Source: Pseudonocardia sp. T1-2H
Lineage (GTDB): Bacteria; Actinomycetota; Actinomycetes; Mycobacteriales; Pseudonocardiaceae
Direction: 5' to 3'
Length of the DNA stretch: 64,000 nt
Assembly: GCF_038039215.1 (NCBI RefSeq)
Contig: NZ_JBBPCL010000001.1
Location: 4,526,001 to 4,590,000, forward strand
The position numbers and the translations under genes were made by a program. Under the pieces are notes generated by a model, which was not told the DNA's origin, made no database searches, and saw only the letters and a list, made by a program, of their open reading frames with translations. This document shows positions 8,088 to 55,210 of the stretch, piece by piece (position 1 is the first letter of the stretch; the number at the start of each line of letters is the position of its first letter).

Positions 8088-8147
8088 GGTGGTCGGCGAC
8101 CCGGTGGTCGGCGACCCGGTGGTCGGCGACTCAGTGGTCGGCGGGCC
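8088..8147. repeat. 15-bp tandem repeat overlapping the 3' end of ctaF
   Basis: Four units of about 15 bp start with GGTGGTCGGCGACCC at 8088, 8103 and 8118 (the third ends CTC), with a diverged fourth unit at 8133. The ctaF stop codon lies at the boundary of units three and four, so the repeat encodes the last residues of ctaF and continues into the spacer. Slippage here could shift the stop codon. Confidence 0.75.
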
Positions 8148-9756: not shown

Positions 9757-11688
9757 GTGTGCGGCTTGCTGGGACTGCTGACCGCCGGGGCTGACGCGGC
9801 CGACCGGACCGGACCGATCGCGGAGGCCCTGAGGTGTCAACGGCACCGGGGCCCCGACGAGAGCGGAACCTGGAACGACAAGGACGTCGTGCTGGGCTTC
9901 AACCGCTTGTCGATCATCGATGTGGACGGCTCCCACCAGCCGTTGCAGTACGAGGGTGGGCGCTACACGATCATCTTCAACGGTGAGATCTACAACTACC
10001 TGGAGCTGCGCGAGGAGCTGGCCCGCGACCACGGCGCCACCTTCGCGACCGAGGGCGACACCGAGGCCGTCGTGGCCGCCTACCACCACTGGGGTGCGGA
10101 CGCGGTCCCCCGGCTGCGCGGGATGTTCTCGTTCCTGATCTGGGACGCCGAGGAGCGCCTGCTCTTCTGCGCGCGGGACCCCTTCGGCATCAAGCCGCTG
10201 TTCTACGCCACCGGGCCGACCGGCACGGCGTTCGCCAGCGAGAAGAAGAGCCTCCTCCAGCTCGCCGGCGAGCTGGGCATCCTGAGCGACCTGGACCCGG
10301 CCGCGCTGCAGCTCTACCTGACCCTGCAGTACGTCCCGGAGCCGCGGACCCTGCACCGCTCGATCCGGCGCGTCGAGTCCGGCACGCACGTCACCGTGCG
10401 GCCGACCGGCGAGGTCGTCGAGAAGCGGTACTTCACCCCGAAGTTCCTGTCGCTGCCGTCGCACGCGCCGGCCAGCGCGAAGGCCGAGGCCATCGTGCAC
10501 GGCGAGATCGCGGAGGTCCTGCGGGACTCGGTGGCCAAGCACATGCGGGCCGACGTGACGGTGGGCGCCTTCCTCTCCGGCGGCATCGACTCGACGGCGA
10601 TCGCGGCGCTGGCCAAGGAACACAACCCGGACCTGATCACCTTCACCACCGGGTTCGAGCGCGAGGGCTACTCCGAGGTCGACGTGGCGGCGGAGTCCGC
10701 GGCGGCGATCGGCGTCAAGCACGTCGTCCGGACCGTGACCGCGGACGAGATGATGGAGTCGCTGCCGCTGATCACCTGGTACCTCGACGACCCGGTGGCG
10801 GACCCGGCGCTGGTCCCGCTGTGGTTCATCGCCCGCGAGGCGCGCCGCCACGTCAAGGTCGTGCTGTCCGGCGAGGGCGCGGACGAGCTGTTCGGCGGCT
10901 ACACGATCTACCGCGAGCCGTTGTCGCTCGCCCCGTTCGAGAAGGTCCCCGGCACGCTGCGCCCGCTGCTCGGCCGGGCGTCGCGGCGGCTGCCCGAGGG
11001 GCTGCGCGGCAAGGACCTGCTGCGCCGCGGTGCGCTGTCGCTGGAGCAGCGCTACTACGGCAACGCCCGGATCTTCCGGGACGACCAGTTGCACTCGATC
11101 CTGCGCCAGTACGACCCGCGGGTCAGCCACGCCGACGTCACCGCCGAGCACTACAGGGCGTCGGAGAAGTGGGACGCCGTCGCGCGGATGCAGCACGTGG
11201 ACCTGTTCACCTGGCTGCGCGGGGACATCCTGGTCAAGGCGGACAAGATGACCATGGCGAACTCGCTCGAGCTGCGGGTGCCGTTCCTGGACCCCGAGGT
11301 CTTCAGGATCGCCTCCGCGCTGCCGCTGGAGCAGAAGATCACCTCGGGGGCCCAGGGCACCACGAAGTACGCGCTGCGCCGCTCGCTCGAGGGCATCGTC
11401 CCGCCGCACGTGCTGCACCGGAAGAAGCTCGGCTTCCCGGTGCCGATCCGGCACTGGCTGCGCGACGAGATGTACGCCTGGGCGCGGGACATCATCCGGG
11501 ACTCCGACGCGGGACACCTGGTGGACCTGCCGGCCGTGCAGTCCCTGCTCGACGCGCACCGGGAGGGCCCGGTGGACCACAGCCGCCGGATCTGGACCCT
11601 GCTGGTCTTCCTGCTCTGGCACGGCATCTTCGTCGAGCGCCGGATCAGCCCGAAGATCCCGGAGCCCGTCTACCCCGTCCGCATCTAG
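9757..11688 (+). CDS. asnB: Asparagine synthetase (glutamine-hydrolysing)
   Basis: The 643-residue enzyme converts aspartate, glutamine and ATP to asparagine. The start was moved to the GTG at 9757 so that Cys2 follows the initiator (MCGLLGLL), because class II amidotransferases need an N-terminal cysteine nucleophile. The glutaminase domain contains HRGPDESG and FNGEIYNY. The synthetase domain has the ATP-pyrophosphatase loop LSGGIDST near residues 271-278 and GEGADELFGGYTIY. In mycobacteria the homologue (Rv2201) also affects cell-wall amidation, so the physiological acceptor may not be only aspartate. A 22-bp-period repeat array begins 41 bp after the stop. Confidence 0.93.
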   Translation: MCGLLGLLTAGADAADRTGPIAEALRCQRHRGPDESGTWNDKDVVLGFNRLSIIDVDGSHQPLQYEGGRYTIIFNGEIYNYLELREELARDHGATFATEGDTEAVVAAYHHWGADAVPRLRGMFSFLIWDAEERLLFCARDPFGIKPLFYATGPTGTAFASEKKSLLQLAGELGILSDLDPAALQLYLTLQYVPEPRTLHRSIRRVESGTHVTVRPTGEVVEKRYFTPKFLSLPSHAPASAKAEAIVHGEIAEVLRDSVAKHMRADVTVGAFLSGGIDSTAIAALAKEHNPDLITFTTGFEREGYSEVDVAAESAAAIGVKHVVRTVTADEMMESLPLITWYLDDPVADPALVPLWFIAREARRHVKVVLSGEGADELFGGYTIYREPLSLAPFEKVPGTLRPLLGRASRRLPEGLRGKDLLRRGALSLEQRYYGNARIFRDDQLHSILRQYDPRVSHADVTAEHYRASEKWDAVARMQHVDLFTWLRGDILVKADKMTMANSLELRVPFLDPEVFRIASALPLEQKITSGAQGTTKYALRRSLEGIVPPHVLHRKKLGFPVPIRHWLRDEMYAWARDIIRDSDAGHLVDLPAVQSLLDAHREGPVDHSRRIWTLLVFLLWHGIFVERRISPKIPEPVYPVRI

Positions 11689-11728
11689 CCCGACCCGCCG
11701 GCCTGCTGCCTGCGGGCCCGTTGCCCCG

Positions 11729-11904
11729 CGAGTCGCGCTCCGGACCCCCACGAGTCGCGCTCCGGGGCCGCGCGAGTCGCGCTCCGGGGCCGCGCGAGTC
11801 GCGCTGTCGGACCCCGCGAGTCGCGGTGTACAGACGTGCGAGTCGGCGCCTCCGGACGCGCGAGTCGGTGCCCCCCGACGCGCGAGTCGCGCCTCAGCGA
11901 CCGA
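11729..11904 (+). repeat. 22-bp-period dyad array A (8 units) after asnB
   Basis: CGAGTCG occurs at 11729, 11751, 11773, 11795, 11817, 11839, 11861 and 11883, an exact 22-bp step each time. Most copies extend to the odd dyad CGCGA-G-TCGCG; units 2, 6 and 7 keep one good half. The 11-13 bp between cores vary, with units 2 and 3 identical. No protein frame can be kept, because 22 is not a multiple of three. Confidence 0.9.
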
Positions 11905-12286
11905 CCGGTTGCGGTATGCCCTGCACCTTCGCGCCGCATGCGGAGCCGGCCGGCGAGACCACGGCTCAGGGGTACGACGCAGGTCGAAAGCCCGGTCCCC
12001 TGCCGACTGCCCCGGTTCGAGGCGCGCAGCTCCGACCCACGGGGCCCGGGGGCGCGCCGCCGTACAGGCCTCCGAGGAGCGGCGCCTCACCGAACCCTGC
12101 GGCCCACCGACGAGCGCCCTTTTCCGCCACCGCGTGCCGGCCGGCCCCTCGCGGCCCTGCACGGTGCTGCCCGCGACGGAGTAAGGACGTGTCGAGCCGC
12201 CGCGTCGCCGCGGGTTACTCCGCCCCGTTCGGGTCCGCGCCGGCTCGTCCTGGCGAGCGCGGGATCCTGCAGATCCCGCCCGGGTC
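11905..12286. other. Non-coding spacer between repeat arrays A and B
   Basis: About 380 bp between the two arrays hold no convincing gene on either strand; open frames here are short or run through the repeats. No tRNA fold or transposase remnant was recognised. The only structure noted is a short hairpin at 12259-12279, at the edge of array B. Confidence 0.6.
12259..12279 (-). terminator. Short hairpin beyond array B
   Basis: GCGGGATC (12259-12266) pairs perfectly with GATCCCGC (12272-12279) around the 5-nt loop CTGCA. Read on the minus strand it follows adoK and the repeat array and could end adoK transcripts. There is no U-tract, so termination is inference. Confidence 0.4.
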
Positions 12287-12528
12287 CGACTCGAGAGGTC
12301 CCCGGCCGCGACTCGCCCGGTCGCAGATCCCGACTCGCGAGGTCCCAGACCGCGACTCGCCCGGTCGCAGATCCCGACTCGCGAGGTCCCAGACCGCGAC
12401 TCGCCCGGTCGCAGATCCCGACTCGCGAGGTCCCCGACCGCGACTCGCCCGGTCGCAGATCCCGACTCGCGAGGTCCCAGACCGCGACTCGCGGGGTTCC
12501 GGGGGCCGACTCGTGGAGTAGGCCGGGC
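12287..12528 (-). repeat. 22-bp-period dyad array B (11 units) after adoK
   Basis: CGACTCG occurs at 12287, 12309, 12331, 12353, 12375, 12397, 12419, 12441, 12463, 12485 and 12507, always 22 bp apart. This is the complement of the core in array A, so each array has the same orientation relative to its adjacent upstream gene. From 12309 to 12484 two unit types alternate (GCCCGGTCGCAGATCC and GCGAGGTCC(C/A)... tails), giving a 44-bp higher-order repeat. The last unit ends 5 bp before the adoK stop codon. Confidence 0.92.
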
Positions 12529-12533
12529 CGGGC

Positions 12534-13517
<984 letters not shown>

Positions 13518-21931: not shown

Positions 21932-23449
21932 GTGACCACGTCCGTCTCCGTGTCCGCGACCGAGGTCGGTCTGGTGGTCGGTTCCCCCGCCGCGGCCGAG
22001 GCCGACGCCGTGGTCGTCGGCCTGCTCCCCGGCGAGGACGACGGGCACCCCGTCCTCGTGGCCGGCGCCGAGGAGATCGACGCGGCCTTCGACGGTGAGC
22101 TCGCCGCCCTGCTGGACCTCGCGGGGGCGTCCGGCAAGGCCGAGGAGGTCGTCAAGGTGCCGTCCCGCGGGGCGGTCGCCGCGAAGCTCGTCGTGGCGGT
22201 CGGGCTCGGTCCGGCCGAGAACGGGATCCCCGACGGCGAGCAGGTGCGTCGCGCCTCCGGTGCGGTGGCCCGCGCGCTCGCCGGGTCCGGACGGGTGGTC
22301 AGCACCCTCGGCACCGTCGACCTCACGGCCGCGGCCGAGGGCACGCTGCTCGGCGCCTACCGCTTCACGGCGTTCAAGGGCGACCCGGAGGCGGGGAAGA
22401 AGCCGGTCGCGCAGGTCGAGTTCAGCTCCGCCGGGGACGAGGACGGCCTGGAGGTCCTGCGGCACGCCGTCGCCGTGGCGCATGCCGTCCGGACGACCCG
22501 GGACCTGATCAACACCCCGCCCAACGCGCTCTACCCGGAGACGTTCGCCGCGCGGGCGAAGGAGCTGGGCGAGGCCGCGGGTCTGGACGTCGAGGTGCTG
22601 GACGACGCCGCGCTCGCCGAGGCCGGGTTCGGCGGCGTGCTCGGGGTCGGCCAGGGCTCCTCGCGCAAGCCCCGGCTGGTCCGGCTGAGCTGGTCCGGCG
22701 GGGCGACGCCGGTGAAGAAGGTCGCCCTCGTCGGCAAGGGGATCACGTTCGACACGGGCGGCATCTCGATCAAGCCCGCGGCGGGGATGGACCACATGAC
22801 GTCGGACATGTCCGGCGCCGCGGCCGTCATCGCGACGACCGTGCTGGCCGCGACGCTGGAGCTGCCGGTGGCCGTCACGGCGACCGTTCCGATGGCCGAG
22901 AACATGCCGTCCGACACCGCGTACCGGCCCGGTGACGTGCTGACGATGTACGGCGGCAAGACCGTCGAGGTGCTGAACACCGACGCCGAGGGCCGGCTGA
23001 TCCTGGCGGACGCGATCGTCCGCGCCGCCGAGGACGAGCCGGACTACCTGGTCGAGACGTCCACGCTGACCGGCGCGCAGATGGTCGCGCTGGGCACCCG
23101 GACCGCCGGGATCATGGGCAGTGACGAGCTGCGGGACCGGGTCGCCGCGCACGGCCGCGCGGTCGGCGAGGACGCCTGGGCGATGCCGCTGCCGGAGCAC
23201 CTGCGGGCCGAGCTGGACTCGCGCGTCGCGGACCTGGCCAACGTCACGGGCAACCGGTTCGGCGGGATGCTCGCGGCGGGGATCTTCCTGCGCGAGTTCG
23301 TGGCCGAGGGCCTGCCGTGGGCGCACATCGACATCGCGGGCCCGTCCTTCAACACCGGGGGCCCGTGGGGCTACACGCCCAAGGGCGGCACCGGCACCCC
23401 GGTCCGCACGCTGCTGGCGCTCCTCGAGGACATCGCGGCCAACGGCTGA
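21932..23449 (+). CDS. pepA: Leucyl aminopeptidase (M17)
   Basis: The 505-residue M17 metallopeptidase removes N-terminal residues from peptides in the cytosol, usually as a hexamer with two Zn or Mn ions. The C-terminal catalytic domain has GKGITFDTGGISIKP, the diagnostic NTDAEGRLILAD and WAHIDIAGPSF. AGAGGAG precedes the GTG start at 21932. It matches M. tuberculosis PepB (Rv2213) by position. A palindrome of the GTGCGCGGA family begins 8 bp after the stop. Confidence 0.94.
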   Translation: MTTSVSVSATEVGLVVGSPAAAEADAVVVGLLPGEDDGHPVLVAGAEEIDAAFDGELAALLDLAGASGKAEEVVKVPSRGAVAAKLVVAVGLGPAENGIPDGEQVRRASGAVARALAGSGRVVSTLGTVDLTAAAEGTLLGAYRFTAFKGDPEAGKKPVAQVEFSSAGDEDGLEVLRHAVAVAHAVRTTRDLINTPPNALYPETFAARAKELGEAAGLDVEVLDDAALAEAGFGGVLGVGQGSSRKPRLVRLSWSGGATPVKKVALVGKGITFDTGGISIKPAAGMDHMTSDMSGAAAVIATTVLAATLELPVAVTATVPMAENMPSDTAYRPGDVLTMYGGKTVEVLNTDAEGRLILADAIVRAAEDEPDYLVETSTLTGAQMVALGTRTAGIMGSDELRDRVAAHGRAVGEDAWAMPLPEHLRAELDSRVADLANVTGNRFGGMLAAGIFLREFVAEGLPWAHIDIAGPSFNTGGPWGYTPKGGTGTPVRTLLALLEDIAANG

Positions 23450-53057: not shown

Positions 53058-53918
53058 ATGACGTCTGCGAACGACAAGGCTGCCCCCGTGGAGGAAGCCC
53101 CCTACCGGACGGCCGCGCGGCCCAAGCGCGTCCGGATCCACCATCTGCTGGAGATGAAGCAGCGCGGCGAGCGCTGGCCGATGCTCACCGCCTACGACCG
53201 CTACTCCGCGGAGATCTTCGACGAGGCCGGGATCCCGGTCCTGCTCGTCGGGGACTCGGCCGGGAACAACGTGTTCGGCTACGACAACACCCTCCCGGTG
53301 ACCGTCGACGAGCTGATGTCGCTGGTCCGGGCCGTGGCCTGGAACGCGAAGAGCGCCCTCGTCGTTGCGGACCTGCCGTTCGGCAGCTACCAGATCTCCC
53401 CCGGCCAGGCCCTGGAGACCGGGTTCCGGTTCCTGAAGGAGGGCGGCGCGCACGCCGTCAAGCTCGAGGGCGGGGCGCGGTTCGTCCCGCAGGTCGAGGC
53501 CCTGACCGGCTCCGGGATCCCGGTCATGGCGCACCTCGGCTTCACCCCGCAGAGCGAGCATGCGCTCGGCGGGTTCCGGATCCAGGGCCGGGGCGAGGCC
53601 GGGGACCGGCTCGTCGAGGACGCCCTGGCGCTGCAGGAGGCGGGCGCGTTCGCGGTCGTCCTGGAGATGGTGCCGGCGGACGTCGCGAAGCGGGTCACCG
53701 CCGAGCTGCACATCCCGACGGTCGGCATCGGCGCCGGCCCGGACTGCGACGCGCAGGTGCTGGTCTGGTCGGACATGGCCGGGATGAACCGGGGCCGCAA
53801 GCCGCGGTTCGTGAAGCCCTACGCGGACGTCGGCGGGATCCTCCTCGACGCCGCCCGCCGCTTCGGCGCCGAGGTGCGGGGCGGCGAGTACCCGGACTCG
53901 GACCACTCGTACTCCTGA
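53058..53918 (+). CDS. panB: 3-methyl-2-oxobutanoate hydroxymethyltransferase
   Basis: The 286-residue TIM-barrel enzyme adds a hydroxymethyl group from methylene-tetrahydrofolate to 2-oxoisovalerate, the first step of pantothenate synthesis. [58 protein letters not shown] and [11 protein letters not shown] (catalytic Glu) are all in place. The ATG at 53058 gives a short extra N-terminus also seen in other actinobacteria. IlvE in this window uses the same 2-oxo acid. A repeat array starts 15 bp after the stop. Confidence 0.95.
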
Positions 53919-53932
53919 GCCGCGCCAGACCC

Positions 53933-54094
53933 CGACTCGCGCGGCTCCACGGCCCGACTCGCGCGGCTCCACGGCGCGACTCGCGGGGCTCCCGTCCCGA
54001 ACTCCGCGAGTCGCGATCTGGGACCGCGCGAGTCGCGATCTGGGACCGCGCGAGTCGGGGGCTCGGGCCGTGCGGGTCGGGGGCTCGACGGGGC
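53933..54094. repeat. 22-bp-period dyad array C (3 plus 4 units) between panB and the GCS2 gene
   Basis: CGACTCG occurs at 53933, 53955 and 53977, then CGAGTCG at 54007, 54029 and 54051 and the variant CGGGTCG at 54073, each 22 bp apart within its half. The halves are in opposite orientation, separated by 30 bp with CGACTCGCGG facing CCGCGAGTCG. The last unit abuts the stop codon of the convergent gene. The dyad core is the same as in arrays A and B, 41 kb away. Confidence 0.9.
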
Positions 54095-55210
54095 TCAGGT
54101 GAGGTGGGCCCGCAGGCGCACTCCCGGGTCCCCGGACTCGTAGCGCGCGAGCATCTCCGTCGCCGGGCACTCCCGGGCCGCCCACCGCTCCCGCAGCCCG
54201 ACGAGCCGGTCCAGGTCCTCCGGCCGCTCCGCGAGCGCCCGCTCCGCGGCGTCGATCAGCTCGCCGGTGCGCACGTGCACCTCCGGGTCCCGGAGCCCGG
54301 CGATCGCGACCTGCCGGTGCACTGCCGCGTCCGGGGTGATCCGGCGGCCGAGCAGCGTGTCGTCGAGGAGCAGGCCGGTGAGCAGGCTGAGCAGCTCGCC
54401 GTAGAGCGCGGGGTCGGCGCACGCGTCGAAGGCCTTGAACTCGATGCGGCCGATCTCCGCGGGCAGCCGCGCGACCTGCGTCAACGACGGGTCCGACGCG
54501 ATCTGTCCCTCGGCACCGGCGAGGAACGCCATCGCGGCGGGCCGGGCGCCGGTACGGATCGCCGTCCGCGCGGAGAGCCCTCCCCACGGTCGCCCGTCCC
54601 GGAAAGGCGAGGAGAACGACAGCGGCACGAGGAACGGGCTGTAGAACGTGAGCTTCGCGGCGGCGTCGACCAGCCCGGCCGCGTCCATGTCCGGGAAGGA
54701 GAGGTTCAGGTCCGGCCCGTGGGTCACCATGTGCAGGTGCGCCGTGCGCTCCTCCGGCGAGCCGGTCCGGTGCACACGTTCCCACTCGTTGAGCTCCGGG
54801 ACGATCGGGTAGGCCGAGCGGACGGGGTTGAAGCCGATCGCGAACGGCACCAGCCCGCGGGCCAGCGCCTCGTCCTCCAGGGCGGCGACGTCCCGCTCGA
54901 GCGCGGCCACCGCGTCGTCGATCGAGGTGTGGATACGGGTCCGCACCTCGATGCCCTTGGGGTCGCACCGGAGCAGCCGGCCCCCCTCGTCGAAGCGCTC
55001 GAACCCCTCGACGTACCAGCGCTTGAGCTTGATCCCCTGGTCCCCGACGCGCAGGCCCGGATAGTCCGCCGGGTCCTCGGGCAACGCGTCGACGATGTCC
55101 TGCAGCTCGGTGAACGTGGTGTTCGTGAAGTCCGCGAACACCCCGTCGTCGCGCAGGAAGGCGAGCTCGTGCTCGATGCCGAACCGCACGCCGTCGGGAT
55201 CTCCCGCCAC
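54095..55210 (-). CDS. Glutamate-cysteine ligase family 2 (GCS2)-like protein
   Basis: The 371-residue protein begins with the GCS2-type RFGIEHELAFLRDD and has GIEVRTRIHTSIDDAV, THGPDLNLSFPDMDAAG and GRIEFKAFDACADPALYGEL, matching the carboxylate-amine ligase fold. The family ranges from gamma-glutamylcysteine ligases (as in ergothioneine synthesis) to ATP-grasp-like carboxylate-amine ligases, and the exact reaction is not clear. No other egt genes are nearby. The start is the GTG at 55210. It converges on panB across array C. Confidence 0.75.
   Translation of the reverse strand: MAGDPDGVRFGIEHELAFLRDDGVFADFTNTTFTELQDIVDALPEDPADYPGLRVGDQGIKLKRWYVEGFERFDEGGRLLRCDPKGIEVRTRIHTSIDDAVAALERDVAALEDEALARGLVPFAIGFNPVRSAYPIVPELNEWERVHRTGSPEERTAHLHMVTHGPDLNLSFPDMDAAGLVDAAAKLTFYSPFLVPLSFSSPFRDGRPWGGLSARTAIRTGARPAAMAFLAGAEGQIASDPSLTQVARLPAEIGRIEFKAFDACADPALYGELLSLLTGLLLDDTLLGRRITPDAAVHRQVAIAGLRDPEVHVRTGELIDAAERALAERPEDLDRLVGLRERWAARECPATEMLARYESGDPGVRLRAHLT

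Follow-up and report, generated by a model that had tools for sequence, protein, structure and literature searches.

The genome of Pseudonocardia sp. T1-2H carries a family of repeat arrays in which the 7-bp core 5'-CGAGTCG-3' recurs head to tail every 22 bp, most often between genes and in many cases shortly past a stop codon. The core, its direction, and its register are kept while the spacers drift, and the arrays look like selected DNA sites. From comparisons of genome sequences, we tentatively favor, with a little less than even confidence, the reading that a direction-reading protein on these phased sites at gene 3' ends stops or insulates transcription.

Two array loci in a 64-kb window

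The window, the whole 64-kb stretch of DNA analyzed here, corresponds to C1:4526001-4590000 of the 7.0-Mb genome (G000). The arrays that a first-pass annotation described between genes it called asnB and adoK are real: direct reading and a pattern scan both recover eight CGAGTCG and 11 CGACTCG cores, with all steps at 22 bp. Array 1 (11729 to 11889, plus strand), with cores starting at 11729, 11751, 11773, 11795, 11817, 11839, 11861, and 11883, lies 40 bp past the stop codon of an asparagine synthase (glutamine-hydrolyzing) gene (9757 to 11688, plus strand) and is in its sense direction. Array 2 (12287 to 12513, minus strand) shows CGACTCG on the plus strand, hence CGAGTCG on the minus strand, at starts from 12287 to 12507, each 22 bp on from the previous one; it lies 20 bp past the stop codon of a PfkB-family kinase gene (12534 to 13511, minus strand) and is again sense to it. 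The interval between these facing arrays (11890 to 12286) contains no called gene and no substantial sequence in common with the intervals at other loci. The asnB name agrees with the match of this open reading frame to TIGR01536, over its cut-off, and to PF00733, but the adoK name is not borne out, as the kinase gene matches only PF00294 and no NCBIfam model above cut-off. TRF reports the 22-bp period and, in array 2, an additional 44-bp higher-order period (96% matches). An Rfam scan of positions 11600 to 12600 returned one subthreshold miRNA match, which we take as chance.

The core had been described as an 11-bp dyad. Since the exact 11-mer CGCGASTCGCG occurs in just 6 of the 19 units (11727, 11771, 11793, 11815, 11881, and 12483), the conserved part is the 7-mer and not the dyad. 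The window also holds a second locus that the first-pass annotation did not mention, in the gap between panB (3-methyl-2-oxobutanoate hydroxymethyltransferase; 53058 to 53918, plus strand; TIGR00222, PF02548) and a GCS2-family gene that converges on the locus (54095 to 55189, minus strand; PF04107). Here, three plus-strand CGACTCG cores (array 3, 53933 to 53983, minus strand) form the left arm and three CGAGTCG cores (array 4, 54007 to 54057, plus strand) form the right arm of a head-to-head cluster, separated by a 23-bp junction (53984 to 54006) of the 20- to 27-bp class described below. Elsewhere in the window, a 15-bp tandem repeat of 3.7 copies (8088 to 8143, 95% matches) lies where two converging genes meet.

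A genome-wide family with a patchy distribution

The complete G000 genome contains 258 pairs of the form CGASTCG-N15-CGASTCG, compared with a single pair for a reversed-pattern control. In 60 20-kb pieces of G000, 40 of which were picked mostly around arrays, the commonest period of 7-mer chains with at least three units (15- to 33-bp range) is 22 bp, with 49 chains, followed by 15 bp with 11. Random placement without 22-bp periodicity, one of two outcomes that the first-pass annotation had set against its own proposal, is thus not what the genome shows; nor is the other, absence from close relatives. Among 35 relatives of the same genus, 25 carry between 4 and 371 pairs and 10 carry none, while the controls range from 0 to 3. 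Outside the genus, a single pair appears in 4 of 24 genomes, which is not above the control level.

A three-unit pattern extends the distribution: among the matches listed, most are from Pseudonocardia, with several from Nocardioides and others from Actinophytocola gossypii and Amycolatopsis acididurans. At the family level, the pattern is present in 25 of 297 genomes and 8 of 45 genera, often in one genome beside array-free congeners. At the class level, it is present in 6 of 393 genomes, namely, G000 and five members of one genus of another family. We take these five to be Nocardioides, judging from the named three-unit matches; in one of them (G197), the match is a plain 11-bp repeat, and two others match only once. 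Matches in Terrabacter, Myxococcales, Planctomycetaceae, and Eremiobacterota look like near-identical tandem copies and were not counted as members, and the matches in a viral collection are two stretches of one contig. The array family therefore recurs patchily in other Pseudonocardiaceae and some Nocardioides. We found no description of CGAGTCG arrays in a 22-bp register in the literature searched, from which subscription papers were mostly absent.

Core, direction, and register are constrained

Neighboring units in G000 differ at 24% of spacer positions versus 0.6% of core positions. Internal cores are intact in 158 of 163 cases, with the remaining 5 altered, compared with about 15% intact cores expected if the core drifted as the spacer does; because chains were identified through their cores, tolerating up to two missing units, the intact figure is biased upward, though not to that extent. 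In twelve other sets, intact cores likewise exceed expectation, the excess being least clear where spacers are nearly alike (autotrophica, Actinophytocola), and the most mutated cores among them are those of Amycolatopsis (10 intact, 7 mutated). Between species, the spacer varies while the core and the step remain constant. The register in G000 is equally strict, with 229 steps of 22 bp versus 5 steps of 19 to 21 bp.

The central base never flips between adjacent cores at +22, in 0 of 229 steps in G000 and 0 of 65 in G009. Because it is locked to the orientation, the CGAGTCG 7-mer acts as a directional site, and we dropped the earlier interpretation of a symmetric, operator-like inverted repeat. 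The broader suggestion of a multisite binding platform or a new repeat class survives in part: the arrays are a repeat class tied to gene 3' ends in many species of the genus, with core and register constraint pointing to a bound protein, while the operator, convergent-end, and segregation wording is not supported.

Arrays lie between genes and often past stop codons

Placement was assessed in the window and 40 20-kb G000 pieces, most chosen around arrays, which together contain 56 arrays of at least three units; genes were called with our own codon-usage script, and some boundaries are rough. Three of the 56 arrays fall inside predicted genes. The 53 intergenic arrays occupy 22 convergent gaps, 31 tandem gaps, and no divergent gap, whereas 513 of 2,227 random intergenic points fall in divergent gaps (P about 1e-6). 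An association with gene 3' ends thus holds, but the proposed tie to convergent ends does not. Ten arrays are members of tight head-to-head clusters and were set aside from the stop-codon count. Of the other 43, 24 are no more than 60 bp from a stop codon in the sense direction (5 to 54 bp), 5 in the antisense direction only, 1 in both, and 13 in neither. The corresponding counts in G009 are 8, 1, 1, and 4, plus 4 tight-cluster members. In G009, 4 of the 18 intergenic arrays lie in gaps called as divergent, close to the proportion of random points (170 of 652), and the avoidance of divergent gaps therefore holds for G000 only. An unbiased 400 kb to the left of the window contains no array; the arrays are therefore sparse and uneven, and most genes do without them.

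The G000 pieces contain 19 facing neighbor pairs (a CGAGTCG array followed by a CGACTCG array; G->C), 23 to 1,139 bp apart. Five such pairs (L053, L260, L264, L269, and L272) flank a single minus-strand gene, of different kinds. A comparison of 16 intervals between facing arrays found no common cargo, with short weak matches (42 and 57 bp) in two pairs only, and we rejected a composite mobile element with inverted ends on this ground. A segregation signal with replichore polarity, as suggested earlier, is also not supported: four-unit matches number 49 forward and 53 reverse, counted genome-wide, and both orientations occur at single loci. A polar signal of the KOPS type was discarded for the same reason.

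Arrays and hairpins alternate at orthologous gene ends

The 3' end of the kinase gene was compared in 39 genomes of 60 searched. An array is present in 7, a perfect stem of at least 10 within 220 bp in 19, both in none, and neither in 13; of these 13, 10 have a gap shorter than 60 bp or one interrupted by the end of a contig. The stem in one of the 19 (G031) itself holds a core pair. The gap measures 111 to 845 bp with arrays and 44 to 175 bp with hairpins. A Fisher test gave P = 0.0096 on counts of 18 genomes with a hairpin and 14 with neither feature; a recount changes these to 19 and 13, beside the 7 with arrays. At the second locus, 30 genomes of 54 with the gene gave 5 arrays, 11 hairpins outside arrays, none with both, and 14 with neither; one of these hairpins (G011) consists of a single pair of cores separated by 23 bp. 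The genomes compared at both gene ends are related, and the events are not independent. More broadly, a further hairpin occurs at 1 of 56 array-bearing ends versus 73 of 459 other ends, though an array fills much of the zone searched. A close relative with a 96% identical kinase (G026) has lost the kinase-side array, which indicates that a given array is dispensable.

Several other repeats were seen at gene ends. Within the window, the ends at 23449, 28193, 30169, 45330, 49730, and 62352 have near-perfect hairpins with mutually similar GTGCGCGGA-like stems, as if copied, and the exact 8-mer TGCGCGGA is present in only 4 of 73 hairpins gathered from the fetched pieces. The gene-end hairpins of relatives share stem words across loci or species, CGTGAGTGG at L188, L238, and L245 and GAACGGCAC at L186, L187, and L226; the latter two words possibly represent a family of dispersed terminators. 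Past the ortholog of the gene at 54095, L313 and L306 carry other short direct repeats, with units of ~17 bp in G082 and ~18 bp in G074.

Array junctions fall into spacing classes

At head-to-head junctions, where a CGACTCG array meets a CGAGTCG array, the cores are separated by 10 to 15 bp in 15 places, 20 to 27 bp in 57, and 16 to 19 bp in none. These 72 places are those listed for 7 of 22 matching genomes, with the eight G000 gaps taken from a separate neighbor count; they leave out five places in G472, a near-copy of G025, and one place each in G025 and G018, where the strict gaps are 34 and 32 bp and the neighboring unit is one base out of register. G030 adds 44 gaps at 23 to 30 bp. Overall, head-to-head gaps cluster near 12 and 24 bp, and 0 of the 116 counted fall at 16 to 19 bp. 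The opposite (G->C) junctions, in 64 places from 20 genomes, peak at 12 to 13 bp (5 places), 23 to 25 bp (19), and 33 to 35 bp (24), with 16 scattered; this count omits nested repeats as well as two places (one each in G473 and G024), and because the pattern ended at 35 bp, the last peak could equal the first plus one lost unit. The gap classes are about one helical turn apart, with periods of 10 to 12 bp fitting alike, and places within one genome are not independent.

The spacing has exceptions. In other genera, the head-to-head rule is kept in part (13 and 23 bp in g168, plus 2 bp inside longer matches, and 9 bp four times in G502), and the G->C rule is kept poorly (17, 19, 22, 26, 31, and 44 bp). 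G473 has one head-to-head gap of 34 bp. A looser count of neighboring cores of any kind in the named contigs gave one gap of 16 bp and other off-class gaps of 4, 9, 9, 32, 34, 37, and 57 bp; in G000, the off-class gaps are 7, 29, 48, 56, and 58 bp. Facing partner arms in G000 are slightly more alike than arms from other loci (mismatch, 0.387 versus 0.433; P = 0.005), and head-to-head arms are no more alike than those of other loci (P = 0.40). In a mixed-species set, partners of both kinds are more alike (P of 0.001 or less), a result that species-wide unit types would also give.

A candidate transcription boundary

The direction, phase, core constraint, and location after stop codons agree with a series of protein sites that act at the ends of genes, and because arrays alternate with hairpins at the same gene ends, stopping or insulating transcription is our best guess for their function. 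Each array would be a row of directional binding sites, with the core reading 5'-CGAGTCG-3' on the sense strand, typically just past the stop codon. A putative sequence-specific DNA-binding protein would sit at every two helical turns on one face of the DNA and contact its neighbors, both within an array and over inverted junctions. The resulting nucleoprotein row could serve as a transcription boundary, halting RNA polymerase as it leaves the gene or contributing to the halt (roadblock termination), and pairs that face each other may insulate neighboring units. In this reading, the array would stand in for the hairpin terminator found at that gene end in other species. We infer the protein, the way it binds and cooperates, and the stop to transcription. 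Several observations count against this boundary reading: 13 of the 43 G000 arrays outside tight clusters are more than 60 bp from any 3' end and 5 are antisense, the divergent share in G009 is near random, 400 kb lacks any array, G026 has lost one, and the junction rules hold only partially in other genera.

The same core-constraint and phase data would also fit a platform for chromosome organization. The arrays would then be bound by a nucleoid protein or a topoisomerase that controls supercoiling or looping where genes end, much as gyrase binds BIME-2 repeats in Escherichia coli, with any stop to transcription being incidental. The 19 facing pairs in G000, 23 to 1,139 bp apart and with a gene between them at 5 loci, would suit loops, and the binding of gyrase to BIME-2 and of IHF to RIBs at transcription-unit 3' ends is reported in PMC2817692. 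We nevertheless consider such a platform unlikely, as it does not on its own account for the mutual exclusion of arrays and hairpins at a given gene end. We give a similarly low probability to a selfish or hitchhiking repeat that spreads and expands by replication slippage and settles past gene ends, where it does least harm and brings the host no gain. It would account for the patchy distribution (25 of 35 relatives in the genus; 25 of 297 genomes and 8 of 45 genera in the family), for the likeness of units within arrays and the 44-bp higher order in array 2, and for the fast turnover at one locus between close species. However, plain copying does not predict a fixed core, central base, and register amid spacer drift, facing arrays have no common cargo, and a RAYT transposase was recovered from one array-rich Pseudonocardia genome of 17 and one array-poor genome of 15.

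An element acting in RNA would have hairpins form in the transcript of the array or head-to-head cluster, where they terminate transcription or shield the 3' end of the mRNA; this would fit the sense placement past stop codons. Neighboring cores can pair, with a consensus fold of -14.5 kcal/mol, and one pair between them (7,21) covaries, with a z of 3.7 in G000 and 2.2 in G009. However, no covariation was found at the next pairs inward, and the top covariation scores in G000, (8,17) and (17,21), are compatible with no helix. In samples of 40 units each, G000 units fold no better than those with shuffled spacers (z of -0.13; SE, 0.17) and G009 units only slightly better (-0.53; SE, 0.14). The head-to-head loops of G030 and G073 differ widely in sequence at constant length and do fold better than inner-shuffled loops (z of -1.41 with an SE of 0.21 and -0.72 with an SE of 0.25, respectively), which we think stems from their common GGG..CCC layout. 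Per-position pairing in 44 G030 and 26 G073 loops equals that of shuffled partners within noise, and loop arms show fewer matches to their own partner than to shuffled partners (9.09 versus 9.76 and 10.42 versus 11.11 of 15). Covariation for base pairing is weak or absent, and on balance, the loop data favor contacts on DNA over RNA pairing, which also leaves the empty 16- to 19-bp class unexplained. Across these fold and covariation tests, the RNA hairpin reading is weak at best, and we regard an RNA-level element as quite improbable.

Relation to known systems

The REP, BIME, and RIB elements of enterobacteria and pseudomonads resemble the arrays in being extragenic and high in copy number, with many at transcription-unit 3' ends, in regular spacing and both orientations, and REPs are said to aid Rho-dependent termination, BIME-2 to bind gyrase, and RIBs to bind IHF (PMC2817692). 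The CGAGTCG arrays are likewise extragenic and abundant (258 pairs; 53 of 56 arrays intergenic), but they conserve a 7-bp directional core in a head-to-tail 22-bp register rather than a hairpin unit. A palindromic unit maintained by pairing was not found (G000 unit fold z of -0.13, weak covariation at one flanking pair, and none in loops), and a profile search for the RAYT family (Y1_Tnp, PF01797) recovered it, among Pseudonocardia, in 1 of 17 genomes rich in arrays and 1 of 15 poor in them, and in 0 of 8 g63 genomes. Because these two features are lacking, we do not file the arrays under REP/BIME or with RAYT-associated repeats; the likeness is one of place and perhaps of role.

Intrinsic hairpin terminators of the same genus occupy the same place, and either one or the other is found at the two orthologous ends. 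The arrays differ in being direct repeats, with no extra perfect stem of at least 10 beside them at these ends, although head-to-head loops fold better than their inner-shuffled versions. Plasmid iterons are direct repeats of 17 to 22 bp, two turns apart, that are bound by a Rep protein. The arrays, too, repeat directly every two helical turns or so (229 steps of 22 bp versus 5 of 19 to 21 bp), implying binding in phase, but they are chromosomal, lie at many loci at gene ends, and conserve only 7 bp. No replication gene lies beside the two window loci, and the arrays follow metabolic and other genes. The clt loci of Streptomyces plasmids consist of rows of 8-bp TRS repeats read by the DNA-binding protein TraB, and clt-like sequences occur on chromosomes, as given in the accessible part of PMC4170104. 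By description, these too are rows of short motifs in actinomycetes, protein-read in the case of TraB; that part of the source does not name gene-end placement or a 22-bp phase for TRS. Protein roadblocks offer the mechanism proposed here: bound LacI (E. coli) or Reb1 (yeast) stops the polymerase, which is then removed, as described in PMC10310618. LacI and Reb1 act at single or few sites, whereas the arrays are rows of phased candidate sites.

Implications

Terminators in high-GC actinomycetes often lack U-tracts. If the boundary reading is correct, a single motif would mark protein-read transcription boundaries in these organisms. A wider claim, which we regard as doubtful, is that of a dedicated actinobacterial system moving between lineages, in which a direction-reading protein would assemble in phase on CGAGTCG arrays and end transcription, a hairpin-free class of protein-on-DNA terminator swapped with hairpins at the same genes. 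Because arrays are naturally present in some congeners and absent from others, and swap with hairpins at given genes, the boundary reading is open to direct testing, and the arrays provide bait for the protein. If that reading is true, the patchy spread through Pseudonocardiaceae and some Nocardioides would represent a DNA-protein code passed between lineages.
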